Shown here piece by piece: positions 24,069 to 48,480 of a DNA stretch of 64,000 nt. Below the pieces are notes generated by a model. It ran no database searches. It was not told the DNA's origin and was given only the letters and a program-made list of their open reading frames with translations. The stretch is from Terriglobia bacterium. Its GTDB lineage: Bacteria > Acidobacteriota > Terriglobia > Terriglobales > Acidobacteriaceae. A program made the position numbers and the translations under genes. Location: assembly GCA_032252755.1 (NCBI GenBank), contig JAVUPY010000067.1:1-64000 (forward strand). Reading direction: 5' to 3'. Each line of letters opens with the position of its first letter. The stretch's first letter is position 1.

Positions 24069-26159
24069 CTAGTCGCCCGCCGGCACCGGCGCAAAGCTCT
24101 GGGTCTGGCTGTACGGGACCTTCGTCAACAGCAATTGCTCGACAGAATCGACTGGAAGCGGCTTGAAGAAGTAGAAGCCCTGGATGATGTCGCAGCCGAG
24201 GTGATTAAGGATCGCGCACTGCTCGCTGGTTTCCACGCCCTCCGCAATCGTCGTCAGGCTCAAGCTCTTGGAAAGCGACAACACGGCTTCGACGATCGGG
24301 CGTGTTCCCGACGGCTCGGTGACCTTGTCGATGAAGGATTTGTCGATCTTCAGCGTATCGATCGGCAACTGGTGCAGGTAGCTGAGGGATGAATACCCGG
24401 TGCCGAAGTCGTCGACCGCGATGTGGAACCCCAGACGTTTGAGTTGGCTAAGCTGACGCGAAGATTCCTGGACATCGCGCATGACCAGAGTTTCAGTAAG
24501 TTCGAGTTCGATCAGGCTCGGATCGTAACCGCTCTTCCGGAAAATCGACGCGACATTCATCGCAAAGTCGGCGCGCGAGAACTGCAGCGGCGAAACGTTG
24601 ACCGCGATCTTTACGCCTGTCCCGAAGCGCGATTTCCACTCCACGCCCTGACGGCAGACTTCCTGCAAGACCCAGTCGCCAATGGGAACGATCAGCCCGC
24701 TTTCCTCGGCGATCGGAATGAAACGCGAAGGCGGAAGCATGCCAAGCTTCGGGTGACGGAAACGAAGCAGAGCTTCCAGCGCGGCAATCGAGCCGTCGCG
24801 CCGAACCTGCGGCTGGAACTGCAGGTGGAAGCCGCCGATCTCGAGCGCCCTCCGCAACGTGCTTTCGATCTCGAGCGTCTCGCGGGCTTCTTCGGTTGAC
24901 GTCTCGAGGTGTCCTGAGCCGGAGTGCTTGGCGCGGAACATGGCCTGTTCGGCCGCGCGGCGCAGCGCGTCCGAGTCGCCCCCATCGAACGGATACACGG
25001 CGACTCCAATGCTTGCCGAAGCCAGATGGTTGGAGCCTTCGATGAGCAGCGGTCGCTGCAAGGTTTCCAGCAACGCCCGAGCGACGTTGGAAGCATCTTC
25101 GGGCGAGCGGACGTTCTCCAGGACTGCGGTGAACTCGTCTCCACCGGTTCGCGCGATTGTATCGCCGTCGCGTACGCGGGATGCCAGTCGCTGTGCGACT
25201 TCTTTCAGGTACAGGTCGCCGACGCGATGTCCGAAGTTGTCGTTGATGTGCTTGAAGCGATCAAGGTCGATGGAGAAGACCGCCATCATGCTCTTGCTGC
25301 GGCGGCAACGAGCCAACGCCTGGTTCAGGCGGTCCTGTAGCAGGATCCGGTTTGGCAACGACGTGAGTATGTCGTGATTGGCCTGGTGCAGAAGTTGCTG
25401 GCTGTAGACACCTGCCTCCTCAATCTGCTCCTCGAGGATGGTAACGATCATGCCGATCGCGACCAGGTATTTTGCAATCACCAAGAGTCCGTTGGACTCG
25501 GACATGGTCGGGTCCGGCAACACCGAGGGATCCAGGAACAGCGCGGCGCCCCAGGAGAACAATCCGCATGACGCGATGAGCACGCCCAGCGAGAAACGCG
25601 GAAACTTACGGATATAGAGGCAGCCGGCAACCAGGAACAAACTGGAAACGAGTATCCGGAGACTGTAGTCAAAGCCGTGTCCAACCGCCGCAACGGCGGT
25701 GGCTGAGCAGATCAGGCCTGCCACAACCAGCGCTGTCCACGGATAGACAGCGGTCTTGCCATGGTGGCTCAATTCGAGTGCTGCAATGCCAGCGAGAGCG
25801 ATGGATCCGATTGCGAGCGCTGAAATCGAATAGCGAATCGTAGTTTGTCCCGCGATCGTAAAGGCAATCGACGGCACAGCAATCGCAAACGCGAGTAGCC
25901 AGCGCCGAACGGGATGATCGCAAAGGGTAGATACGGAGGCGATGAACAGCGCCCCCGCGAGTTCGGTCGCGCAGACCAATACTGTGGACGCGATGTCGGG
26001 CGAGACGGCTGAAACGAAGCTCAGCGCGGTCGCGCCGACCAGGGCAAGCCAGCCGGCGAACCAGAACTGCGTTTGTCCGCGGCGCTGCTTATGCAGGATC
26101 CACGCAAAGATCAGCAGCAGCACGGACGAAAGCGCCAAATTGAGCCCGCGAATATCCAC
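24069..26159 (-). CDS. Membrane GGDEF-EAL cyclic-di-GMP enzyme
   Basis: A 696-residue protein with about eight hydrophobic segments in residues 5-245. The GGDEF domain has an intact active site (339-343) and the product-inhibition site RDGD five residues before it. The EAL domain has EALLRF (462-467) and DDFGTGYSSL (583-592). Both halves look catalytically competent, so it may make or break c-di-GMP. It is divergent from a PilZ gene, a natural receptor for its product. Confidence 0.92.
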   Translation of the reverse strand: MDIRGLNLALSSVLLLIFAWILHKQRRGQTQFWFAGWLALVGATALSFVSAVSPDIASTVLVCATELAGALFIASVSTLCDHPVRRWLLAFAIAVPSIAFTIAGQTTIRYSISALAIGSIALAGIAALELSHHGKTAVYPWTALVVAGLICSATAVAAVGHGFDYSLRILVSSLFLVAGCLYIRKFPRFSLGVLIASCGLFSWGAALFLDPSVLPDPTMSESNGLLVIAKYLVAIGMIVTILEEQIEEAGVYSQQLLHQANHDILTSLPNRILLQDRLNQALARCRRSKSMMAVFSIDLDRFKHINDNFGHRVGDLYLKEVAQRLASRVRDGDTIARTGGDEFTAVLENVRSPEDASNVARALLETLQRPLLIEGSNHLASASIGVAVYPFDGGDSDALRRAAEQAMFRAKHSGSGHLETSTEEARETLEIESTLRRALEIGGFHLQFQPQVRRDGSIAALEALLRFRHPKLGMLPPSRFIPIAEESGLIVPIGDWVLQEVCRQGVEWKSRFGTGVKIAVNVSPLQFSRADFAMNVASIFRKSGYDPSLIELELTETLVMRDVQESSRQLSQLKRLGFHIAVDDFGTGYSSLSYLHQLPIDTLKIDKSFIDKVTEPSGTRPIVEAVLSLSKSLSLTTIAEGVETSEQCAILNHLGCDIIQGFYFFKPLPVDSVEQLLLTKVPYSQTQSFAPVPAGD

Positions 26160-27533: not shown

Positions 27534-28967
27534 CTATGCCGATGTGCCGTCTGGCGGCGGCTGGATACCGTACTGTTTGATCTTGTAAAGCAGCGCCTTG
27601 TAACTGATCTTCAGCTCGGTCGCGGCCTGCTTGCGGTTCCAGTTGGTTTTGTCGAGGGCGCGGGCGATCGCCTCCAGTTCAGCATCTTCCTTCAGGTTGC
27701 GGACGAGCTTCTTGAGGTCGCCGGGATTCGGTAAGGAAGAGCCGGGGGCGCGCATCGCAGCTACCGGAGTGAGGCTCATCAGTTCGGCGATCATGTGGGA
27801 TTCGTCGCCGAGCACGATGTAGCGCTTAACGAAATTTTCCAACTCGCGCAGATTGCCGGGCCAATCGTAATCCATGCAAGCCTGAATCAGCTGATCGGAG
27901 ATGGGCGGAGTTTCGCGGCCGAACTCGTCGGCGAGCCGGGTTACGAAATATTGCATGACGATTGGAATCTCTTCCTTGCGTTTGCGCAATGGCGGGAGAT
28001 TGAGTGTGAAGCCGTTCAGGCGGTAGAAGAGGTCTTCGCGGAAGCGCTTCTGGGCGATGGCTGCTTTTATGTCGATGTTGGTGGCGGCGATGACGCGAAC
28101 GTCGACCTTTACGGCATTGCGCGCGCCGAGGCGAGAGAACGTTCCGTCCTGCAGAACGTGCAACAGCTTCGCCTGCAAGGCCGGCGGCATTTCTCCGATT
28201 TCGTCGAGGAAAATGCTGCCGTGATTGGCGAGTTCGAACTTTCCGGGCTTGGAACGGTTCGCGCCCGTGAAAGCTCCCTGTTCATAGCCAAACAGTTCGC
28301 TTTCCAGAAGGTCGCCGGGCATGGCGGCGCAGTTCACTTTGAGGAACATGCGGCTGGCACGGGGCGAAGTCTTATGAATGTACTTGGCCAAGACTTCTTT
28401 TCCGGTTCCGCTGTCGCCAAGGATCAGGACCGGAATGTCGACGCGGGCAACCAGAGAGCACTGGTAACGAATTTCGCGCATGCTCTGGCTGGCAAAGATG
28501 AAGACGTTCTGGTCGTCCAGGCGAATCTGGTTTGTCTCAATGCTGGGATCGTTGGGGCCAAGCACCTGTTCGACAACTTCAAGCAACTCGTTCCGCTGAA
28601 AGGGTTTGAGCAAGACATCGCGCGCCCCGGCACGCATTGCGTTAACACTGAAGCGCGAATCGTGGCAGCAGGAGAGCCCAATGACTTTCAGCGAAGGTGC
28701 CGCCGACTTGATCTGGCGGAGAACTTCCATTCCGTCGGACTCGTGAAGAAACATATCGAGCAGAACGAGGTCAGGCCGCATGTGGAGCTTCGAGAGCCCT
28801 TCGTCACCGGTGGCGCAGACAGTGAGCGAGTATTGATCGCGGTCGAAAACGGTGCGCACGTATTGCTGCAGGCCGGGATCGTCCTCGATCAATAAAATGC
28901 TGCGACGACGGGAAGGCTGAGGTTCGGAGCTGGCATGAGAAAACGCTCCTGTTGCGGCTGCTGACAT
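27534..28967 (-). CDS. NtrC-family response regulator, sigma-54 activator
   Basis: A 477-residue protein with three domains. The receiver (23-137) has acidic pocket E28-D29-D30, phospho-acceptor D71 and K121. The AAA+ domain has Walker A GDSGTGKE (184-191), sigma-54 contact loop GAFTGA (231-236) and FLDEIGEM. The Fis-type helix-turn-helix is TNWNRKQAATELKISYKAL. GGGGTGA precedes the ATG. It could be the PrsR-type regulator of PEP-CTERM genes. No histidine kinase is in the window. Confidence 0.9.
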   Translation of the reverse strand: MSAAATGAFSHASSEPQPSRRRSILLIEDDPGLQQYVRTVFDRDQYSLTVCATGDEGLSKLHMRPDLVLLDMFLHESDGMEVLRQIKSAAPSLKVIGLSCCHDSRFSVNAMRAGARDVLLKPFQRNELLEVVEQVLGPNDPSIETNQIRLDDQNVFIFASQSMREIRYQCSLVARVDIPVLILGDSGTGKEVLAKYIHKTSPRASRMFLKVNCAAMPGDLLESELFGYEQGAFTGANRSKPGKFELANHGSIFLDEIGEMPPALQAKLLHVLQDGTFSRLGARNAVKVDVRVIAATNIDIKAAIAQKRFREDLFYRLNGFTLNLPPLRKRKEEIPIVMQYFVTRLADEFGRETPPISDQLIQACMDYDWPGNLRELENFVKRYIVLGDESHMIAELMSLTPVAAMRAPGSSLPNPGDLKKLVRNLKEDAELEAIARALDKTNWNRKQAATELKISYKALLYKIKQYGIQPPPDGTSA

Positions 28968-29472: not shown

Positions 29473-30555
29473 ATGGATATTGCTGCACAACGCGCTGCCG
29501 GCGTGAATCCGGATTCGGATTCCCCACCGGAGGAAGTAATCTTCGGCATTTCGCCGGCAATGGCTGAGATCCGTCGCGTTATTGAGCGGGCGGCAGCGGT
29601 CAACATTCCGGTTCTGTTAACCGGCGAAAGCGGAACCGGCAAAGACCTGATCGCCCGGATGTTCCATCAATACTCAGGTGTTTCCAACGGGAACTTCGTA
29701 AAGGTGAACTGTCCTGCAATTCCCGGCAATTTGCTGGAGAGCGAACTGTTCGGGTACGAGCGCGGTGCGTTTACCGGTGCATTCGCAGTCAAACCTGGCA
29801 GAGTTGACCACGCAAACGGCGGCACGCTCTTCCTCGACGAGATCTCTGAACTCGACTACGACCTGCAGGCGAAGATCCTGCAACTGCTGCAGGATGGAAC
29901 GTATATGCGGATCGGCGGACAGGAGATGCGGCAAACGAAGCTGCGCCTGGTGTGCGCTACTAACCGCGATCTGCACGCCGAAGTTGCGCAAGGAACCTTT
30001 CGACAGGATCTGTATTACCGCATCGCGGTGATCACGGTTCGCACGCCGCCACTGCGTGAACGGATCGCCGACCTTCCGGTAATCGCGGATTACTTCGTTC
30101 AAACCTATGGAGAGCGGTACAACGCCAAGGTGAAGCCGCTTCCTGTGGCGGTGATGAATGAGATGCTGCGCTATCACTGGCCGGGGAACATCCGCGAATT
30201 GCAGAACCTGATCCGGCGCTACGTCATTCTCGGCACGCCAGATTCCATTTTGATGGAATTATGTGTGCCGCCGAAAGACGGTATCAGTCTGGACGTCGAG
30301 TTCGATGGACAGGTTTCGCTGCGCAAGGTGACGCGCGAAGCGGTTCGCAAACTGGAAGCGAAACTGATCCTCAAAGTTCTGAAAGCCAACAATTGGAATC
30401 GCCGCAAAACCGCAAAAGCTCTGAAAATCAGCTACCGCGCATTGCTCTACAAGATTCGCGACGCGGGCCTGCCGAGCCGAACGCAAACGGTGCCCGGGCA
30501 GGAGACGGAAATCGCCTCGGCGGGGGCGACCTCGGAGACGTTGCCAGAGGCGTAG
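29473..30555 (+). CDS. Orphan sigma-54 enhancer-binding protein (no receiver domain)
   Basis: A 360-residue activator beginning almost directly with the AAA+ domain: Walker A GESGTGKD (51-58), sigma-54 loop GAFTGA (98-103), Walker B FLDE (120-123), and arginine-finger region DLYYRIAVITVRTPPLRER. The C-terminal Fis helix-turn-helix is NNWNRRKTAKALKISYRAL. Lacking a sensory domain, it must be controlled by level, by a partner or by nucleotide. It is divergent from a full NtrC-type regulator and precedes the PEP-CTERM gene. Confidence 0.9.
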   Translation: MDIAAQRAAGVNPDSDSPPEEVIFGISPAMAEIRRVIERAAAVNIPVLLTGESGTGKDLIARMFHQYSGVSNGNFVKVNCPAIPGNLLESELFGYERGAFTGAFAVKPGRVDHANGGTLFLDEISELDYDLQAKILQLLQDGTYMRIGGQEMRQTKLRLVCATNRDLHAEVAQGTFRQDLYYRIAVITVRTPPLRERIADLPVIADYFVQTYGERYNAKVKPLPVAVMNEMLRYHWPGNIRELQNLIRRYVILGTPDSILMELCVPPKDGISLDVEFDGQVSLRKVTREAVRKLEAKLILKVLKANNWNRRKTAKALKISYRALLYKIRDAGLPSRTQTVPGQETEIASAGATSETLPEA

Positions 30556-30666: not shown

Positions 30667-30726
30667 ATGTGCAGAAGTTTGCATACCCACATCAAGTTCG
30701 CCTTGAGCTTAGCCGTAAGTTACTGA
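30667..30726. promoter_or_regulatory. Operator-like sites upstream of the PEP-CTERM gene
   Basis: TGCAGAAGTTTGCA (30670-30683) is the inverted form of the 14-mer at 26453 and 29449 with two changes. CGTAAGTTACTGA (30714-30726) is the exact reverse complement of 29401-29413. The PEP-CTERM start is about 200 bp downstream, an enhancer-like distance. The rest of the 329-bp gap has no gene. Confidence 0.5.
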
Positions 30727-30884
30727 AAATAAGATGGCACCTATTGGCGTGTTGCGGATGGCCAATTGCAACCCTCAAGGGTACCTGGTGCGGTTTACTT
30801 TCCAGTTCCGACTGGCCACCTATTAATGAACGCCCAAACAAGTTGGATTGGGCATGGGGTAAAACGAAGGGGAGAAGACAATCT

Positions 30885-31424
30885 ATGACAAAGAAATTCG
30901 TGATTGGCGTGCTTTTCGTAGCCTTGCTCGGATTAGGCGTCGGCACGGCATTTGCAGACACGATCGATCTCAGTTCCTCAAGCTATGTGGGCTATGTGCA
31001 TCCTGGCACTCCGTCCAGCGAATCTGACGAAGTGGCCTACATCAACAACCTGATTGCTCAGGCGGCCAACTCGACCACGACCATCGGTAGTTACACGTAT
31101 TATCGCAGCTCAAACACGGATAGCTACCCGACAGCGGTCTTGGCCGGCAATACGGGCAACTGCACGGACTGCAGCACTTCGATAGACGTATCGGGGTACG
31201 ACTATCTCCTTGCCAAGTACGGTACTGATGATTACATCTGGTACGTGGCAGGTCTCACGACGGTCGACATCCCGGCGAGCCTCGGGCAGGGCCTCGGCTT
31301 ATCGCATTGGACTCTGTTCGATCCAAGCGGCACTCCGCCGGTTCCGGAGCCGACCTCGATGGCTCTGCTCGGCACGGGATTGTTCGGAGTGGCCGGAGCG
31401 ATTCGGCGGAAGCTCCGCAAGTAG
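30885..31424 (+). CDS. PEP-CTERM sorting-domain protein
   Basis: A 179-residue exported protein with a signal peptide (hydrophobic 6-22, cut near AFAD) and a C-terminal PEP-CTERM signal at 153-179: VPEPTSM, a hydrophobic segment, then RRKLRK. It is Ser/Thr/Tyr-rich with few charges. The sorting signal should be recognised by the exosortase encoded at 44263. Start ATG at 30885 follows AAGGGGAGAAG. A terminator follows. Its binding target or structural role is unknown. Confidence 0.9.
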   Translation: MTKKFVIGVLFVALLGLGVGTAFADTIDLSSSSYVGYVHPGTPSSESDEVAYINNLIAQAANSTTTIGSYTYYRSSNTDSYPTAVLAGNTGNCTDCSTSIDVSGYDYLLAKYGTDDYIWYVAGLTTVDIPASLGQGLGLSHWTLFDPSGTPPVPEPTSMALLGTGLFGVAGAIRRKLRK

Positions 31425-35978: not shown

Positions 35979-37802
35979 TTATGGCGTTATCAGGCCGGAC
36001 AGCACGTCAGACTGGCCGTATGGTAGGCTTCGCCGGTAAGGCGAAGACTCTGCATCCAGGCCTGTAGCAACGACGGCGGAAATCTCTATGAAATAGGTGT
36101 TGCCGGTCGTCATAACGCCGGGCGGGACCTGTATTGAATGAACTCCCCCCCCAATCCAGAGAGTTTTGGATGCTAATGTTTGTGCCACGGTGGTTCCACT
36201 GGAGTTCGCCAGCGCCGTGATGGTGACCACGTATTCTGTGGGAGTTCCGAAGGATGCGGATGGAGAGTCCCAAGCTATCACAGGGCTAGTGCCCACTCCA
36301 CTGGCATTAGACTGAAAGGAGACACTTGTTGAACTCCCGTATGCCTTGATGGTTGGGTTCAATACAGGGCCGACCAGAGGCACGATGGGAGCCGTGCTGG
36401 TAGGCAACGTTGTGTTGTAAGCAATGTTGCCGGCGGTCGCATTGTAGGCGGCAGTCGTTCCGGGCAATGTGTATGGCACCGAAACCATGTGTACGAATTC
36501 CGCGAACAATGGCCAGTTCGGAGGGAAGTAGGGATCGCCGTAAGGGATGTCTCCCAAATTCCTATCCGCCAGGTTGGGGGTGCCAGACTGGCAATCGTCG
36601 GCCAAGATGACATCTCCAGCTACATTATTGGTGAAGCCAGTGCCAGCGCTCGATGGCAGGGCCTGAACCCCCAGACACGTGGAAGAATTAGTTGCACCAG
36701 GGCCCATCAGGGGCGTGAAAGTTGCGAACTGAGAAGCGTTTACAGACAAATGAACTGTGCTGTTGTTCGTGACCGGTGTGAATGCTGCATTGAGTTGAGT
36801 CTGAACTCCATTTGGGGTGCTGAACGGGTCCGGTTGCGAATAGAAACGTTCCACAGCCTTGTAGCCGCCACCGGTTACCGTGTGGTGCACCAACTGGTAG
36901 ACAATGGCATAGTCACCTTTAGTCGAATTCAGGAGTGGAGAGGTGAGATCGATCACGTCACTAAGCGACGTGGAACCGGCGGAGCCGCTGGTAAAGAATC
37001 GCTTGTACGTTCCGGTGTTCGGTGAGTAGAAGATGGCGAAATCACTGGTCTGCCATGCTGAAGCACCGGTCATGGTAAGCGAGACTGTTGCGCTGCCTAT
37101 CGTCACTGTTGAGTCGCCGATATAATCGATGCCGGTGTCGACGGTGTTGTTCTGCGTCCAAACGAAGGTTCCCCTTCCGTCGGTCAGCCAGAAGTAACCG
37201 GTCGGAACTCCTGTAATCGAATAGGTGCCATCGGAGGCACCTGTGCCCGAGATACTGGTAAAACCACCATTCCCATTCGGTACGAGAGCCGCAAGCGCGA
37301 ACGTCGAAGCGTTCTGTGGAACATCCTGAGGGGGGGTAAATGCGCCGGTCGTATCGGTTGTATGAAAGGTAACGACGGTGGATCCAGTGACGGTTCGGGT
37401 TGGGGATGCCGACACGGTGACGACTGCCGTTGCGGATTTTGTGGTGTCGGCCTGCGAAGTTACGAGGACATGATAGGTGCCTGCCGTATTGGGAGCAGTG
37501 TAAAGGCCTGCCGAGGTAATCGTCCCGCCGCTATTGCCTTCCACGACGAGCCAATAAACCGAGGTATTGGAAGTATTAGTGACTGTGGCGGTGAAGGTAG
37601 CGCTTTCTCCAACGCCAAGACTCCTGGTTGCCGGGTTGATAGTGATGCCGACGACTTGTCCGCCGCCACCGCCACCCCCTCCGGAAGTGCTTCCGCCGCC
37701 GCAGGCGGTAAGGGTTATGGCCAGAACAACCGCCGATAAGATGCCAACACTATTACGGAGTCTAGAGCCTATGGCGCTGGGGTCAAGCGGGGTATGCTTC
37801 AT
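35979..37802 (-). CDS. Large putative lipoprotein with Ig-like region
   Basis: A 607-residue protein. The signal peptide ends in lipobox LTAC with Cys34, followed by a Gly/Ser run. Residues about 50-135 form a bacterial Ig-like fold (VGITINPATRSLGVGESATFTATV, TYHVLVTSQAD). The rest is Thr/Ser-rich beta sequence with no catalytic motif. It is probably exposed on the cell surface or in the periplasm. A single gene with terminators on its 3' side. Confidence 0.78.
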   Translation of the reverse strand: MKHTPLDPSAIGSRLRNSVGILSAVVLAITLTACGGGSTSGGGGGGGGQVVGITINPATRSLGVGESATFTATVTNTSNTSVYWLVVEGNSGGTITSAGLYTAPNTAGTYHVLVTSQADTTKSATAVVTVSASPTRTVTGSTVVTFHTTDTTGAFTPPQDVPQNASTFALAALVPNGNGGFTSISGTGASDGTYSITGVPTGYFWLTDGRGTFVWTQNNTVDTGIDYIGDSTVTIGSATVSLTMTGASAWQTSDFAIFYSPNTGTYKRFFTSGSAGSTSLSDVIDLTSPLLNSTKGDYAIVYQLVHHTVTGGGYKAVERFYSQPDPFSTPNGVQTQLNAAFTPVTNNSTVHLSVNASQFATFTPLMGPGATNSSTCLGVQALPSSAGTGFTNNVAGDVILADDCQSGTPNLADRNLGDIPYGDPYFPPNWPLFAEFVHMVSVPYTLPGTTAAYNATAGNIAYNTTLPTSTAPIVPLVGPVLNPTIKAYGSSTSVSFQSNASGVGTSPVIAWDSPSASFGTPTEYVVTITALANSSGTTVAQTLASKTLWIGGGVHSIQVPPGVMTTGNTYFIEISAVVATGLDAESSPYRRSLPYGQSDVLSGLITP

Positions 37803-38009: not shown

Positions 38010-38714
38010 TTAGTCGCTAAAGATTTTTTTCCACCACGGTCGTTTTGAACGGGCGACTTCTTCTTCGTCTTCGACATAGTCGTCGAGGCCGAGGAAGCCA
38101 GTGGCGACGTGGCGGTCGTCGTCCCATACGGGGCTAGTTTCGATAACCGGTGGTTCCGACTGGATTGCGTCGTGCCAGGGAATCTCGGTTTCAATGTTGC
38201 CGTCAGGTTGCGGGATGGCTTCCGAGGGGATGTCCCAAAGTGCAGGATCGGTGCCGGAGGTTTCGTGCTCGACCCGGGATTCGGTGGGCACAGGTTCGAA
38301 AATTTCGGGGCGTTCCCAGGTAGTCGGGCCGAAGATGAACTCGGCGGGTGACTGCTCAGTAGAGGGAGCGGATTCGGTTTCCTTCAGTTGCGCCTGGTGC
38401 TGGATCGGGATTACGCTTTCGGCGACGGGCGGCAAACTTGATTCCGACTCGGGCGGTGCCGGTTCCGGGCGCACCGATTCGATCATAGGATTTGCATCCG
38501 CTGTGGGCTCGAGGACAGGGACAGCCGAGACGGGCGTTTTTCGGCGAGCGGTGATTACGAGGGCCGCGCCTTTCTGCAGGGTGGGTGCGACCACGACGGA
38601 ATCGCGGTGCTCGAATAGAGGCTGCGAAAGGGCCTGGATCGAAACGTCATTTTCATCGAGGCGCTGCTTGAGAGCCGTGGCGGTCTGGTCGTCGAATGTT
38701 TTCCAGGCTGGCAT
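38010..38714 (-). CDS. Hypothetical acidic, disordered protein
   Basis: A 234-residue protein from ATG 38714, chosen for GAGGGA 9 bp upstream; ATG 38777 would add 21 residues. A short ordered start (WKTFDDQTATALKQRLDEND) is followed by about 150 residues rich in Pro, Glu, Ser and Thr. The basic tail is SKRPWWKKIFSD. No membrane segment. The layout suggests a scaffold or linker protein; function unknown. Confidence 0.6.
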   Translation of the reverse strand: MPAWKTFDDQTATALKQRLDENDVSIQALSQPLFEHRDSVVVAPTLQKGAALVITARRKTPVSAVPVLEPTADANPMIESVRPEPAPPESESSLPPVAESVIPIQHQAQLKETESAPSTEQSPAEFIFGPTTWERPEIFEPVPTESRVEHETSGTDPALWDIPSEAIPQPDGNIETEIPWHDAIQSEPPVIETSPVWDDDRHVATGFLGLDDYVEDEEEVARSKRPWWKKIFSD

Positions 38715-38897
38715 AAGTGTTCCCTCGGCTGCTGTGGTATTTGGATGCACCTGGAGACCCGAGTGGCTGTCGATCATAGCTGAAATTTGGGCCAAACGGG
38801 GAAATCACCGCCGCTATATTCAAATGTCACTTTTTTTGGGTCGGCGGCTGTCCTAGTATGTCAGGAATCAAATCGGCGCCCCTGAACTGGAGGAACC

Positions 38898-43612: not shown

Positions 43613-44266
43613 TTACTTCGGAATGTAAGCATTCAGCATTGGGAACAAAGTTTGGGCGAACTCTACGGCTCGCGCCTGGCTCTGTTCCACCGTTTCGTTG
43701 GGGAGGATTGGCGTCACCAAGCGAACCATACCGCCGTCCGACCGGTTCATGCGAATCGAATCGGCGATGAGATAGAACTTCGCGGCGTACTCACTTGCGG
43801 TTACCCGGCCATGTGCCTGGTACCAGTACATGACTAACTGCTTGTCAGACCCCTGTGCTACGACGTAGCGATTAACACGGATGGACTTGCCGGGTGCAAC
43901 CGGAATCCATACACGGTCAGATTCCAATGGAGTCCATCCAGAACCGGGAAGGCAGTTCTTGGGCGAGTGAATCGTATCGCCGGTACGCTGGCTGATGTAA
44001 TAAGCGATGAAAAGATCGACTGGCTGCCGCACCGGGCTGGTGTAGAGGCGGGACAGGAAATGTCCGTCTCCCAGCACCTCGCGCACGCTGGGACTGATTG
44101 GTTCGGGCCTGCCCTGCCATGTATCGATCGTGTAGGGAAGCTTTTCGAGATCCTGATATTTTGCTTGGAACTCGACCCGTCCACGCGCCTGCAGCAGACC
44201 CGCGGTGGCTAGCAATAGTACCGAGACAATCAAAACACGAGTGCTGGACAGTTTCGAACTCTTCAT
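43613..44266 (-). CDS. epsI: Exosortase-associated EpsI-family protein
   Basis: A 217-residue protein with one N-terminal membrane segment (about 10-26) and the EpsI signature HSPKNCLPGSGW, plus QLVMYWYQAHGR and a conserved DSIRMNRSDGGMVR. In some species EpsI is fused to exosortase; here it follows it with a 4-bp overlap. It is needed for polymer production in related loci, but the biochemical role is unknown. Confidence 0.92.
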   Translation of the reverse strand: MKSSKLSSTRVLIVSVLLLATAGLLQARGRVEFQAKYQDLEKLPYTIDTWQGRPEPISPSVREVLGDGHFLSRLYTSPVRQPVDLFIAYYISQRTGDTIHSPKNCLPGSGWTPLESDRVWIPVAPGKSIRVNRYVVAQGSDKQLVMYWYQAHGRVTASEYAAKFYLIADSIRMNRSDGGMVRLVTPILPNETVEQSQARAVEFAQTLFPMLNAYIPK

Positions 44267-45159
44267 TGGGCTCTCGCAATCTTCAGTTTCGGAATGAGAC
44301 TCAGGGCCTTATGGGTAATGAAGAGCAGACACATGGAAACCAGGAAAATCAGCCAGCCGGAGAATTCGTGGAAGAATCCAAGCGCTCGGTCAGGATTCCA
44401 GTACTGAACCATTAAACCGGTTCCGAAGATCCGGAAGCCGTTGGCGAAGACCGCGATGGGGATTGCCGCCAGCGCGAGGATGACGCGCATGGCCACGCGA
44501 TCGTCCACGAAGTAGCCATAGATGATGGCGAGGGTTCCCAGGCTGAGCAGGGAGCGGATCCCGCTGCAGGCCTCGGCGACCTCCAGCGGCATGGCGGGAA
44601 GCGCGATGATGTTGCCTTCGCGGAAAACCGGAATCCCGACCAACTGAAGCGAAGCCGCGGCCAATTTGGCGGCGAGTGTCTGCAGCGGCAACGTCATCTG
44701 CGCGAATAGTATGGCTGGAATTGGAACCATCAAGAAAAGGAACAGCCATGGGAACAGCAGTACTCTGAAGTATAGCCATCCCAAGAAGTAGATGATCAGC
44801 CCCGCCAAGAAAAGGATTAATGACACACGGGCGACGAATAGTTCTGCGCCAAGGCTGCCTAGGATCACCAGCGATAGGGAGCCGACTATCACCGGGAATC
44901 CCCAGTTGGAAGGCTCGATTGCGAGAGCTGAAAGTTCCTTACGTTTTGTCCAGACAATGAAGGCTGAGAAGAGCGGAACGATGAAGCCGTGCGAGAAGTT
45001 TGGGTCATCGCTCCAGTCCCTAATAAGACGCCACACGACGTCGTAGTAGACCGCCGCGATCAAGGCCAGGAGCAGCAGCAGTTTCCACGAGAGTAATGCC
45101 CCCCTTAATTCTTGCCGGTTGGATGCGGGTTGTTCGGCAACTGCTTGCGAGAGGTCCAT
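44263..45159 (-). CDS. xrtA: Exosortase (EpsH/XrtA type)
   Basis: A 298-residue protein with about eight membrane helices. The catalytic triad candidates are Cys198 in EACSGIRSL, Arg243 in NGFRIFG and His264 in FHEFSGW. Exosortases cut PEP-CTERM proteins near the membrane and pass them to the surface or polymer. It is first in the leftward operon, 40 bp after a sigma-54-like promoter. The PEP-CTERM protein at 30885 is a candidate substrate. The A-type assignment rests on context. Confidence 0.93.
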   Translation of the reverse strand: MDLSQAVAEQPASNRQELRGALLSWKLLLLLALIAAVYYDVVWRLIRDWSDDPNFSHGFIVPLFSAFIVWTKRKELSALAIEPSNWGFPVIVGSLSLVILGSLGAELFVARVSLILFLAGLIIYFLGWLYFRVLLFPWLFLFLMVPIPAILFAQMTLPLQTLAAKLAAASLQLVGIPVFREGNIIALPAMPLEVAEACSGIRSLLSLGTLAIIYGYFVDDRVAMRVILALAAIPIAVFANGFRIFGTGLMVQYWNPDRALGFFHEFSGWLIFLVSMCLLFITHKALSLIPKLKIARAQ

Positions 45160-45198: not shown

Positions 45199-45215
45199 AG
45201 CAATTCGGGTTCCAG
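45199..45215 (-). promoter_or_regulatory. Sigma-54 promoter of the exosortase operon
   Basis: On the minus strand CTGGAACCCGAATTGCT has GG and GC spaced by 10 bp and matches YTGGCACGRNNNTTGCW except at three positions. Transcription would start near 45188, about 30 bp before the exosortase start. Confidence 0.6.
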
Positions 45216-45275
45216 CATAGCTGGGCAGGCGCGCTCAGTTTTCAAGAGGTTGCGGCGGAAACTGAGGCGGAAAGT

Positions 45276-45468
45276 GGAAAATGATTTCCCTTGGGAAAGG
45301 GGATTTCCATCACGAAACGGGGCCAAAACAGGGGTGGTTCTTGGCGCATCCCATTGGGGACGTATCGGTAAGTTATTGTTTTTCAGTGATTTGAACTGAA
45401 GGGAATCCGTTTGCCGCGCGCAATGGGAAAAGGTTTTCCACCCGGAGTTGCCATTAAAGGGGATTTTC
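45276..45468. promoter_or_regulatory. GGAAA-N4/5-TTTCC palindromes, candidate enhancer sites
   Basis: GGAAAATGATTTCC (45276-45289), GGAAAGGGGATTTCC (45294-45308) and GGAAAAGGTTTTCC (45426-45439) are inverted repeats of one type. AAAGGGGATTTTC (45456-45468) is a weaker relative. They lie about 60-250 bp upstream of both divergent sigma-54 promoters, where activators usually bind. The 495-bp gap 45160-45654 has no gene. Confidence 0.6.
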
Positions 45469-45545: not shown

Positions 45546-45562
45546 CTGGTACGGCATTTGCA
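45546..45562 (+). promoter_or_regulatory. Sigma-54 promoter of the exopolysaccharide operon
   Basis: CTGGTACGGCATTTGCA differs from YTGGCACGRNNNTTGCW at one position only, with GG (45548) and GC (45560) correctly spaced. Transcription would start near 45573, about 80 bp before the start at 45655. Confidence 0.8.
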
Positions 45563-45654
45563 ATAGACCGTAGCGAGAGTATCTCGGTTCGAGTAGCAAT
45601 TCAGTTAAGCGAGAGCCATAGTCGACCGGAGTAATCGCTGGTCGGATTTAGGTC

Positions 45655-46548
45655 ATGAGCAATCTCACGCAGGTCATTGCAGAATTGGCGGCAAGTGACG
45701 TTCCGGTGCTGCTCCTGGGCGAACCGGGGGTCGGCAAGCACCTGGTTGCGCGGCAAATCCACGACGCCGCGCCGTGGCGCGCGTCGCAGTTCCTGCACTG
45801 CCGGTGCCGACACGCGGATGAGGCGGCGATTCGGCGGGTTTTCGAAGCCGAGAGCGAGCGCACGAAAGAGCCCTACACTGCATATTTCGAGGGGCTGGAA
45901 GAGCTTTCCGCAACAGGCCAGAGAGCATTGCTGAACTGCATGGATGGCCAGAAGGATCGTGGGCCCTGTCCGCGAGTGATTGCTTCGGGGACGACGGACC
46001 TTGAGATGGAAGTACGATCGGGGCGGTTCCGCGAGGATCTTTACTACCGGCTCAGCGGAATCTGCTTCACTATCCCGCCGTTGCGTCACCGAAGAGAAGA
46101 TCTGTGCCAGTTGGCAGATGAATTTCTTGAAAAGTTTGCGGCCCAATTCAGCCGGCCTAAGCCGCCGTTGAGCCCGGCGCTGACGCGTTTTCTTTCGTCC
46201 CATCCGTGGAGTGGAAACCTGGATGAGTTGGAAGATGCAATGCGGACAGTAGTGGCGGTAGGCAACGTTCAGGTGGCGATCTCAGCCTTGCGAAATTCGC
46301 AGTCGAATGGCAATGGCCGCGAGAAGCGCAATGGGTGGGAAACGGTTTCGCTGAAGCAGGCGGCCCGCGCGGCGTCACAGAGGGCCGAACGGGAACTGAT
46401 TCTAAAAGTCCTTTCGAAGACCAATTGGAATCGCAAGAAGGCGGCTGAAGAACTGCGCATCAGCTATAAGGCACTTTTGTATAAGCTTCGAGAAATTGGC
46501 TCGACCCCGTCAGCACTGGTCGGGCAGCAGGAGGGTAAGTCGGAATGA
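45655..46548 (+). CDS. Degenerate enhancer-binding-type AAA+ / Fis protein without the sigma-54 loop
   Basis: A 297-residue relative of sigma-54 activators. Walker A GEPGVGKH is at 22-29, but the segment that should hold ELFGYE-GAFTGA is replaced by unrelated sequence (about 50-72), and Walker B reads AYFEGLEE instead of LFLDEIGE. The RFREDLYYRLSG and PPLRHRREDL elements and the Fis helix-turn-helix (TNWNRKKAAEELRISYKAL) are kept. It probably binds DNA but cannot remodel sigma-54 polymerase itself. It is first in the EPS operon and overlaps the next gene by 4 bp. Confidence 0.8.
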   Translation: MSNLTQVIAELAASDVPVLLLGEPGVGKHLVARQIHDAAPWRASQFLHCRCRHADEAAIRRVFEAESERTKEPYTAYFEGLEELSATGQRALLNCMDGQKDRGPCPRVIASGTTDLEMEVRSGRFREDLYYRLSGICFTIPPLRHRREDLCQLADEFLEKFAAQFSRPKPPLSPALTRFLSSHPWSGNLDELEDAMRTVVAVGNVQVAISALRNSQSNGNGREKRNGWETVSLKQAARAASQRAERELILKVLSKTNWNRKKAAEELRISYKALLYKLREIGSTPSALVGQQEGKSE

Positions 46549-47132
46549 AGAGACTGGCACTTGTTCTTTTATTGGCGATCTGCTCGCTCCCGGCCTGGTC
46601 GCAAGGAAAGACGGCGAATGAGACGCCAACGAAATCCGCTACTGACGATCCGACGTACGTGATCGGACCTGAAGATATGCTCAACATCGCAGTCTGGAAG
46701 GAGCCCGATTTTTCCAGCACGGTTCCGGTGCGGCCGGACGGCAAGATATCGCTGCCGTTATTGGGGGATGTAGAGGCGTCTGGAAGGACGCCGGGCCAAC
46801 TTGCTCAGGACCTCACGGTGAGGCTAAAGAAGTACATCGACGATCCCCATGTCACTGTGGTGGTGACCGCGATCAACAGCAAGCGGGTGTACATCCTGGG
46901 CGAGGTCAATCATCCGGGCACGATGAACATGTCTCCGGATATGACGGTGCTGCAGGCGATCTCGGCGGCTGGTGGACCGACAGCGTACGCCAACACGAAA
47001 AAGATCACGATACTCCGCACCGTCGCCGGACAGCAGAAGAAATACGCCTTCAATTACAAGGAAGTCATTAAGGGCAACGATATACAGCAGAATATCGTGC
47101 TGCAGTCGGGAGACACGATTGTTGTTCCGTAA
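46545..47132 (+). CDS. Polysaccharide export protein (Wza-like, SLBB domain)
   Basis: A 195-residue exported protein. The signal peptide ends near AWSQ without a lipobox Cys. The polysaccharide-export domain starts at YVIGPEDMLNIAVWKEPDF and an SLBB domain follows (KRVYILGEVNHPGTMNM). It is shorter than E. coli Wza, as in EpsE/PEP-CTERM loci, so the outer-membrane channel is probably completed by the beta-barrel encoded next. Confidence 0.9.
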   Translation: MKRLALVLLLAICSLPAWSQGKTANETPTKSATDDPTYVIGPEDMLNIAVWKEPDFSSTVPVRPDGKISLPLLGDVEASGRTPGQLAQDLTVRLKKYIDDPHVTVVVTAINSKRVYILGEVNHPGTMNMSPDMTVLQAISAAGGPTAYANTKKITILRTVAGQQKKYAFNYKEVIKGNDIQQNIVLQSGDTIVVP

Positions 47133-47145
47133 CAAGGAAACAAAC

Positions 47146-48480
47146 ATGAAATATGCTGCAATCATTTTGTTAATGCTGTTGGCGGCCGGCAGTGCGATGG
47201 CGCAGACACAGTCGGCACCACCCGCGCCAGTCGCGGGATCGGTGCCGGATCAACCTGAGACTCCGACTTACGAACCCATGGATCAGCCTCTGTCAGGTGT
47301 GGAGACGCAAGATATCGGGTGGTCGTCGGAATCTCGAAACACCTTCGTTCCGTTCGTAACGGCTTCGGGAGGATGGGAGTCGAATGCACCTCATCTGTCA
47401 GGAACAAGTTCCACGACTGCCGGGTCCGGGATTGCGAATCTTGCGGGTGGTTTGACGCTGAATCGAATGTCTGGGACGGGCAATGTGACTTCGCTCGAGT
47501 ACATGGGTGGTGGACAGCTCTACACGGTCGATTCGAACCTGAACGGGCAGTTCCAGCGGCTGAACTTTTCGCAACGGTTATTGGCTGGAAGGTGGTCGTT
47601 CCTGCTGTCGGACGGGTTCTCGTATCAGAAAGACGCATTTGCAGCTGCGGCGCCCATGTTGTTTCCGGGTGTGTACTTCGGTCCGGGAGGGACTTTCTAC
47701 CGTCCCGGAGTGACTCCGGGCGAATCGATCATTGGGCAGAACACGCCTCGCATCAACAATTCTTCGACCGGGCAGGTTACGTACGGTTTCAGCCGAGCGA
47801 CATCGCTGACGACGAATTTTTCGTATGGGGTACTTCACTATCTCGACAGCGCTGTTTATCTCAGTAATCGGCAGTTGTCAGGTGGAGGGGGGCTGGACCA
47901 CCGTTTTGGACGCGACACCCTGGGGCTGAACTATGAATTCACGAGATTCTCATACGACGATATCCCGGTGAAGTTTGATTCGCATACTACGCAAGTTGTG
48001 TTCAGTCATGTACTGACCGGCCGGTGGTCGTTTGAGGCGGGCGGCGGGCCTTCGATTCTCGTCAGCGACTACTCGCTCTACAAAATGACGCGAGTATATG
48101 GCAGCGGACACGCGGCATTGCACTACAAAGTGCCGATGACCGATTTGACCCTGCGGTATGGGCGATCGGTTACGAACGGCTCCGGGGTGCTGCCGGGGGC
48201 GATCACCGACGATGTGGGCTTCATGGGCAATCGCGGGCTGAGCCGCGCGACATCCGTCAACTTCTCCGGGGGTTACTCTCGTAATTCGGGAGTATTTGTC
48301 AATTCGAGTTTTAATACCTTCTACGTGGGAGCCGGGGTTTCGCAGAAACTTGGCCGATACGCCAGCGTGTCTTTTGGATACACAGGCCAGCGGCAAACAG
48401 GAAGTGCATCTTCGGGGCTGACCCGTCATTCGGTACTGGTGTCATTCAAGTGGAGTTTCAGGCCGATCATGTTGCGGTGA
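47146..48480 (+). CDS. Outer-membrane beta-barrel protein of the EPS operon
   Basis: A 444-residue protein with a signal peptide (cut near AMAQ), starting at 47146 after AAGGAAA. After a Pro-rich linker come alternating amphipathic strands rich in Tyr, Phe and Gly (TLGLNYEFTRFSYDDI, HALHYKVP-type) and a C-terminal aromatic/basic end KWSFRPIMLR. The place between export protein and Wzz suggests an outer-membrane channel or EpsL-like factor. Confidence 0.75.
   Translation: MKYAAIILLMLLAAGSAMAQTQSAPPAPVAGSVPDQPETPTYEPMDQPLSGVETQDIGWSSESRNTFVPFVTASGGWESNAPHLSGTSSTTAGSGIANLAGGLTLNRMSGTGNVTSLEYMGGGQLYTVDSNLNGQFQRLNFSQRLLAGRWSFLLSDGFSYQKDAFAAAAPMLFPGVYFGPGGTFYRPGVTPGESIIGQNTPRINNSSTGQVTYGFSRATSLTTNFSYGVLHYLDSAVYLSNRQLSGGGGLDHRFGRDTLGLNYEFTRFSYDDIPVKFDSHTTQVVFSHVLTGRWSFEAGGGPSILVSDYSLYKMTRVYGSGHAALHYKVPMTDLTLRYGRSVTNGSGVLPGAITDDVGFMGNRGLSRATSVNFSGGYSRNSGVFVNSSFNTFYVGAGVSQKLGRYASVSFGYTGQRQTGSASSGLTRHSVLVSFKWSFRPIMLR

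Follow-up and report, generated by a model that had tools for sequence, protein, structure and literature searches.

A loop-less enhancer-binding protein clade at the head of sigma-54-type EPS operons and its possible role as a feedback tuner

Promoters read by sigma-54 are strictly activator-dependent. Bacterial enhancer-binding proteins (bEBPs) without a working GAFTGA motif are already known, with VpsR, the NtrC of Rhodobacter capsulatus and TyrR as examples. In the accessible parts of the literature, the NtrC proteins of R. capsulatus and of Caulobacter carry a deletion of GAFTGA and are reported at sigma-70 promoters (PMC12421884, PMC10274813), VpsR of Vibrio cholerae is a GAFTGA-less bEBP that controls biofilm genes (PMC10274813, PMC12421884), and TyrR, DhaR, HupR and other homologues have a non-functional GAFTGA (PMC3162934). 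For the exosortase setting, excerpts of the sources describe PEP-CTERM genes preceded by a sigma-54 element and, further upstream, by a motif for an activator (motif 1) (PMC1569441), and PEP-CTERM and RpoN are also linked in PMC9850573. Among the open-access titles and abstract openings that were matched, a scope mostly outside the subscription journals, none dealt with loop-less bEBPs that form a clade in exosortase/EPS operons under sigma-54 control; while GAFTGA-less bEBPs as such are familiar, the circuit considered here is a new variation on them. It centers on a gene, termed EBPx, in a stretch of 64,000 nucleotides (the window), where it lies between two genes of the exosortase/EPS setting:

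45655 to 46548, plus strand: EBPx, a loop-less pseudo-bEBP with AAA+ core, lid and Fis helix-turn-helix (open reading frame, Pfam, alignment and AlphaFold2 model)
46545 to 47132, plus strand: wza-type polysaccharide export gene, its ATG overlapping the EBPx stop
44263 to 45159, minus strand: exosortase of the EpsH/XrtA type, divergent from EBPx (profile matches)

A sequence-only reading of this DNA had EBPx opening an EPS operon. This arrangement holds well beyond the window: besides the overlap of the wza start with the EBPx stop, wza is the next gene in 84 of the 92 rows of the clade defined below (three of the eight exceptions lie near a contig or stretch edge), and ATGA or GTGA marks the EBPx stop in 30 of the 92. 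Where the stretches are long enough, wza is usually followed by an open reading frame without Pfam match, a chain-length determinant, an XrtA-system ATPase, a tyrosine kinase and EpsB2. The opposite-strand exosortase gene is present in 75 of the 92 rows, and 16 rows show no exosortase match in the stretch read. Long frames without Pfam match lie in the window at 35979-37802 (minus), 38010-38795 (minus) and 46972-48480 (plus), the last being the frame that recurs 3' of wza in related loci.

EBPx encodes 297 residues from an ATG, with an in-frame TAG one codon before it, and matches Sigma54_activ_2 (E 5.4e-18), AAA_lid_14 and HTH_8 of the Fis type (E 2.3e-10). The AAA+ bEBP fold and the Fis helix-turn-helix are both recovered by Pfam, by the AlphaFold2 model and by fold search, and the protein begins at the AAA+ core, Pfam and the reading frame giving no N-terminal regulatory or receiver domain. 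A Sigma54_activat match extends 15 nt 5' of the ATG (45640-45654), through the in-frame TAG, and many relatives have longer open frames at this end, so that the start of the window protein may have been truncated.

The motifs that define a functional sigma-54 activator are unevenly kept, much as had been noticed from the letters. The Walker A P-loop is intact (GEPGVGKH), as are both arginines of the Arg finger (FREDLYYRL). GAFTGA and its surroundings are missing from the alignment, the loop-1 segment aligning over 22 residues, compared with 36 for the intact class, and loop 2 lacks about eight of the residues that the intact relative from the same window has. Walker B, given earlier as altered, indeed reads TAYFEGLEE, with Asp changed to Glu and Glu to Gly (FEG against LDE in the intact window relative), so that the Asp-Glu pair is absent; at the sensor II position Arg has become Asp (GNLDELED). 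The labels for sensor and Arg-finger residues follow PspF usage. In the AlphaFold2 model, a single chain built from an eight-row alignment (mean pLDDT 78.9, pTM 0.63), the place expected for loop 1 is taken by a helix (residues 56-69). The solved structures closest to the model in fold are sigma-54 activators, with the VpsR entry 7v2b among the fold matches. A frameshift or sequencing error that hides a normal loop was rejected, given that over the first 330 bases neither alternative frame contains anything like GAFTGA and that the loop is absent clade-wide (0/92).

Because loop 1 is missing, EBPx should be unable to make the known sigma-54 contact, which makes contact with this factor very unlikely; because Walker B and sensor I are changed, ATP hydrolysis has probably been lost. 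Both arguments rest on established work with PspF and NtrC. Nucleotide binding and self-association, on the other hand, are probably kept.

For the distribution of such proteins, 398 genomes of the family were searched, best matches first, and 182 bEBPs from the retrieved loci were then aligned. Relatives of EBPx were found in at least 90 of the 398 genomes and form one clade, all of it loop-less: the largest set around the window protein that is free of intact rows numbers 92 (support 100 in the tree of 182). These rows are drawn from 90 genomes, with G170 contributing three. The clade was again recovered (support 100/99) in a more careful tree, to which it supplied 25 of the 69 rows. No GAFTGA-like stretch occurs in any of the 92 rows, and the loop loss is therefore not peculiar to the window. 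Two further sequences were left out of these counts: L126, whose apparent loss reflects masked bases, and L133, which is loop-less and falls in the single-domain clade. The order in which the three paralogous bEBP clades branch is not firm (SH-aLRT 87). When 249 genomes of the order and 247 of the phylum were searched, sets which include family members, the matches at E 1e-42 did not show the main clade outside the family; a search with window-specific patterns led to four distant loci.

Since the rows are related, the following residue counts are not independent. The P-loop Lys is present in 92/92, the first Arg finger in 86/92 and the second in 72/92. Walker B retains its Asp in just 10 of the 92 (Glu in 37, Gln in 23) and its Glu in 79, sensor II keeps Arg in 62, and at sensor I 75 rows have Ala or Ser in place of Asn. 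All 44 intact single-domain rows have the Walker B Asp and Glu, the two Arg fingers and the Arg of sensor II. Mean pairwise identity of the AAA+ core is 0.50 in the EBPx clade against 0.70 in the intact single-domain bEBPs; the order is reversed for the helix-turn-helix (0.82 against 0.77) and for its recognition helix (0.98 against 0.90). Median dN/dS in the clade is 0.117 for the AAA+ part and 0.035 for the helix-turn-helix, by a simple Nei-Gojobori calculation over those 132 of 279 pairs (overlapping, close relatives) with dS of 0.2-1.6. As identity of the helix-turn-helix was held while that of the AAA+ core fell, and given these ratios, the clade is by these measures under purifying selection, with the predicted DNA contact the most constrained.

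These values bear on whether EBPx is a functionless copy in decay, or an artefact of sequencing. The window copy belongs to the more degenerate members of the clade (its end branch in the careful tree is 0.76 long), and it has no relative close enough to enter the dN/dS calculation itself. However, the low medians of the clade, although they come from pairs of close relatives to which the window copy does not belong, the conserved place and promoter, and an EBPx frame free of internal stops make this a highly improbable account.

The same window codes for two intact activators with GAFTGA, as had been claimed for it:

27534 to 28967, minus strand: intact response-regulator bEBP, PrsR-like, with receiver, AAA+ and helix-turn-helix domains and GAFTGA (TIGR02915, 365 bits; cut-off 502.6)
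29473 to 30555, plus strand: intact single-domain bEBP paralogue with GAFTGA (motif and domain matches)

A PEP-CTERM protein is encoded directly 3' of the latter (30669-31424, plus), and a GGDEF-EAL protein near the former (24069-26159, minus), through which c-di-GMP may feed into the cluster. By identity of the helix-turn-helix, these two activators are the closest to EBPx among the readable bEBPs of its own genome: EBPx shares 25/38 positions with the response regulator and 24/38 with the single-domain protein, which share 20/38 with each other, while one more reaches 23/38 and the rest at most 19 (16 readable of 26 full-length matches, the response regulator included). The recognition helix of the window EBPx differs from that of each intact activator at 4 of 14 positions.

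An intact single-domain relative accompanies EBPx in 35 of 36 EBPx genomes examined (chosen from the 90, the window's included), those of the other genomes at 49-61% identity; the one exception, G024, is a genome 75% complete. A paralogous intact partner in the same genome, as in the HrpR/HrpS type, is thus available in those 35, and EBPx might act within mixed rings, as a non-hydrolysing loop-less subunit of hetero-hexamers with the single-domain paralogue that lends its Arg fingers in trans and is needed for, or tunes, sigma-54 activation. In addition to this co-occurrence, the pattern of loss suits such a role, residues that act in cis having gone (Walker B Asp) while the P-loop Lys and most Arg fingers stayed, and heteromeric bEBPs are known from HrpR/HrpS, FleQ/FleT and VnfA paralogues in the accessible portions of two papers (PMC9542535, PMC7057263). 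HrpR/HrpS and FleQ/FleT resemble EBPx and its paralogue in being paralogous bEBPs without N-terminal regulatory domains, and, as far as the excerpts go, they act together; in contrast to EBPx, HrpR and HrpS each retain all characteristic motifs, and ring mixing for EBPx is hypothetical. Moreover, in G017, G147, G181 and G246, whose single-domain bEBP is decayed, the matches listed include no second single-domain relative that could be the partner, although in G147 the loop is changed to DAFTGA only. The kept Arg fingers make a mixed ring attractive, but they may serve self-assembly only, and we regard the proposal as unlikely. A narrower form strikes us as rather doubtful: EBPx could be a dedicated non-catalytic, sigma-54-blind subunit that dropped cis catalysis and the loop while keeping Arg fingers and DNA contacts, with hetero-hexamers throttled by the product of their own operon in a division of labor like that of clamp loaders.

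What precedes EBPx was searched with the strict sigma-54 pattern [TC]GG-N9-TGC[AT] in a zone 80-270 nt 5' of the conserved start, and for palindromes resembling enhancers. The sigma-54 and IHF patterns used here are those that we take to represent the respective sites.

45547 to 45562, plus strand: sigma-54 -24/-12 element TGGTACGGCATTTGCA (pattern match)
45425 to 45440, plus strand: enhancer-like palindrome GGGAAAAGGTTTTCCA, its center 114 nt 5' of the -24 element
45275 to 45290, plus strand: enhancer-like palindrome TGGAAAATGATTTCCC (pattern match)
45293 to 45309, plus strand: enhancer-like palindrome GGGAAAGGGGATTTCCA, with one mismatch (pattern match)
45199 to 45214, minus strand: sigma-54-like element TGGAACCCGAATTGCT before the divergent exosortase gene (pattern match)

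The suggestion that a sigma-54 promoter drives EBPx gains from the comparison. In the loop-less class as a whole, in which L126 and L133 are still counted, the element occurs in 88/92 upstream regions, against a mean of 4.8 and a maximum of 12 in dinucleotide shuffles and 7 in a control zone of the same width; in the EBPx clade alone it occurs in 85 of the 89 upstreams of at least 450 nt, and in intact single-domain genes in 33/35 (shuffle mean 2.2). Of those 85, 83 have the palindrome GGGAAA-N3-5-TTTCCC with a score of at least 10/12, and the best copy is centered 90-152 nt before the -24 element in 76 of the 83. With spacers of 2-7 it is found in 88/91 of the loop-less class (again with L126 and L133), against 9.4 in mononucleotide shuffles, and in 23/34 of the intact single-domain genes against 3.6. 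The predicted palindromes in the window fall inside or at the edge of the span 45276-45468 that the sequence-only reading had named for DNA binding, and two of the only seven places with GGRAAAN{3,5}TTTYCC in the 5.39-Mb genome lie upstream of EBPx (reversed-pattern control, 0). Of the other five, L227:1501-1515 (G000:C94:1822-1836) alone has a sigma-54-like element nearby, at a distance of 168 nt on the minus strand (limit of the search, 200 nt); it precedes a frame with a lipoprotein-like start, possibly a further regulon member.

Part of this code is shared with activators that keep their loop. The GAAA..TTTC core, at 9/12 or better and 90-175 nt 5' of the -24 element, precedes 19 of the 35 intact single-domain genes (none in a control zone), and L019, a locus of another family in which a single-domain bEBP reading GSFTGA lies ahead of wza, has CGGAAATTGTTTTCCC at -115; many promoters that depend on an intact activator therefore share the core seen at EBPx. 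It is absent at this distance from the other 16 of the 35, the window's own 29473 gene among them, and response-regulator genes do not qualify as carriers of the palindrome (3/32 against 2.2 shuffled).

An IHF-like site of at least 8/9 is found in 55 of the 85 clade upstreams against 11.3 in shuffles; none is claimed for the window, where the best score is 7/9. The genome itself has one match for rpoN and five of the HU/IHF type. As for the divergent gene, a sigma-54 element before xrtA did not hold as a general rule, occurring within 200 nt in only 19 of 75 loci (shuffle mean 3.1, maximum 7); in some lineages, sigma-54 may drive transcription in both directions from the region between EBPx and the exosortase.

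The upstream layout also bears on a comparison with VpsR and the R. capsulatus NtrC, by which EBPx would directly activate or repress housekeeping EPS promoters of the sigma-70 type, perhaps with c-di-GMP. EBPx is like VpsR a loop-less AAA+ bEBP in the setting of polysaccharide and biofilm control and shares with this group the missing loop, but not the receiver-type N-terminal domain. VpsR has such a domain and acts at sigma-70 promoters with c-di-GMP, whereas EBPx is domain-less and lies behind a sigma-54 element; the NtrC proteins of R. capsulatus and Caulobacter, which likewise have the deletion over GAFTGA, are full two-component nitrogen regulators, unlike EBPx, which a sigma-54 EPS operon encodes as its first gene. 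TyrR, DhaR and HupR are similar in their defective GAFTGA, and have regulatory domains and pathways other than those of EBPx. The known GAFTGA-less bEBPs do act at sigma-70 promoters, VpsR on biofilm genes, and the R. capsulatus NtrC requires binding of ATP, not its hydrolysis, according to the available parts of the sources (PMC10274813, PMC3162934). The GGDEF-EAL gene at 24069-26159 would also suit this type of control. However, the conserved promoter ahead of EBPx is of the sigma-54 type, EBPx has no receiver domain, and a motif similar to LFRS, a c-di-GMP motif of FleQ, occurs in just 1 of the 92 rows. Direct action at sigma-70 promoters is thus quite unlikely. The setting of EBPx is shared by PrsR (TIGR02915) and the PEP-CTERM sites, with an exosortase/EPS context and a sigma-54 element plus upstream motif in the excerpts available; PrsR differs in being an intact response regulator, and EBPx scores 131.3 bits, below the cut-off of 502.6.

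Taken together, EBPx is probably a built-in brake or tuner of the slime-making operon; for the full proposal, a sigma-54-blind pseudo-bEBP that is made from a sigma-54 operon and tunes EPS expression by feedback, we consider the chances to be even. The operon would be driven by sigma-54 with EBPx as its first product, and its enhancer would be read by the PrsR-like response regulator, the intact single-domain paralogue, or both. Rising EBPx could then occupy the GGGAAA-N3-5-TTTCCC enhancer, join rings with intact subunits, or do both, and by taking enhancer sites or ring positions from the intact subunits would damp or cap EPS transcription as a feedback of the product. Of the earlier suggestion of a DNA-binding antagonist or co-regulator with feedback, the parts that stand are the missing sigma-54 contact loop, the selection on the helix-turn-helix and the sigma-54-type promoter with its palindromes; feedback is built into this layout, since the promoter and the enhancer-like palindromes belong to the operon of EBPx, contact with sigma-54 is very unlikely, and the constrained helix-turn-helix is close to those of the activators. 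That EBPx binds the palindromes, competes or mixes with the activators, and does so with a negative sign, is what we infer from this arrangement.

Several observations count against a brake. P-loop and Arg fingers are kept, which is more than a mere competitor for DNA would need; the core is lacking before 16 of the 35 intact single-domain genes, 29473 included, and the response-regulator genes hardly exceed their shuffled background; and there are the differences from each activator in the recognition helix. With the core missing both at 29473 and at the response-regulator genes as a class, the reader of the EPS enhancer could be either activator. If the tuner proposal is correct, a conserved, operon-encoded pseudo-activator that shares the enhancer would provide a built-in limiter for sigma-54 promoters, and could also show in a natural setting how many subunits of a bEBP ring have to be active. 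The automatic label "sigma-54-dependent regulator" would be wrong for the whole EBPx clade, and the palindrome with its -24/-12 element represents a predicted enhancer code for exosortase/EPS loci of the family.

Loss of the loop is not confined to this clade. On the careful tree the lost-loop state requires five changes (six if L148, which keeps DAFTGA, is counted as intact): one in the main EBPx clade and the others in the single-domain bEBPs of G061 (with G147, whose loop is merely altered), G018, G017, G246 and G181. On starred branches alone three changes are forced for the decayed rows, and the long G181 row is of unsure placement. An intact response-regulator bEBP lies beside the decayed gene in G017, G061, G147, G181 and G246, and on this tree similar losses have arisen repeatedly in single-domain bEBPs in such company; the response regulator of L144, which reads GAFTSA, was counted as intact. 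In the window's own genome, GAFTGA was not found in the open frame of another bEBP (L180, G000:C47:22695-23186), for which the exact letters were searched only. In a different family of the order (G028), a loop-less single-domain bEBP at L231:2878-3975 (minus) has kept Walker B and falls in the single-domain clade, with an intact bEBP within the same 8.5-kb stretch. A contig of the Desulfobacteraceae, of another phylum, likewise combines a decayed bEBP (L051:3583-4953, minus) with an intact one near Wzc-/tyrosine-kinase-like genes.
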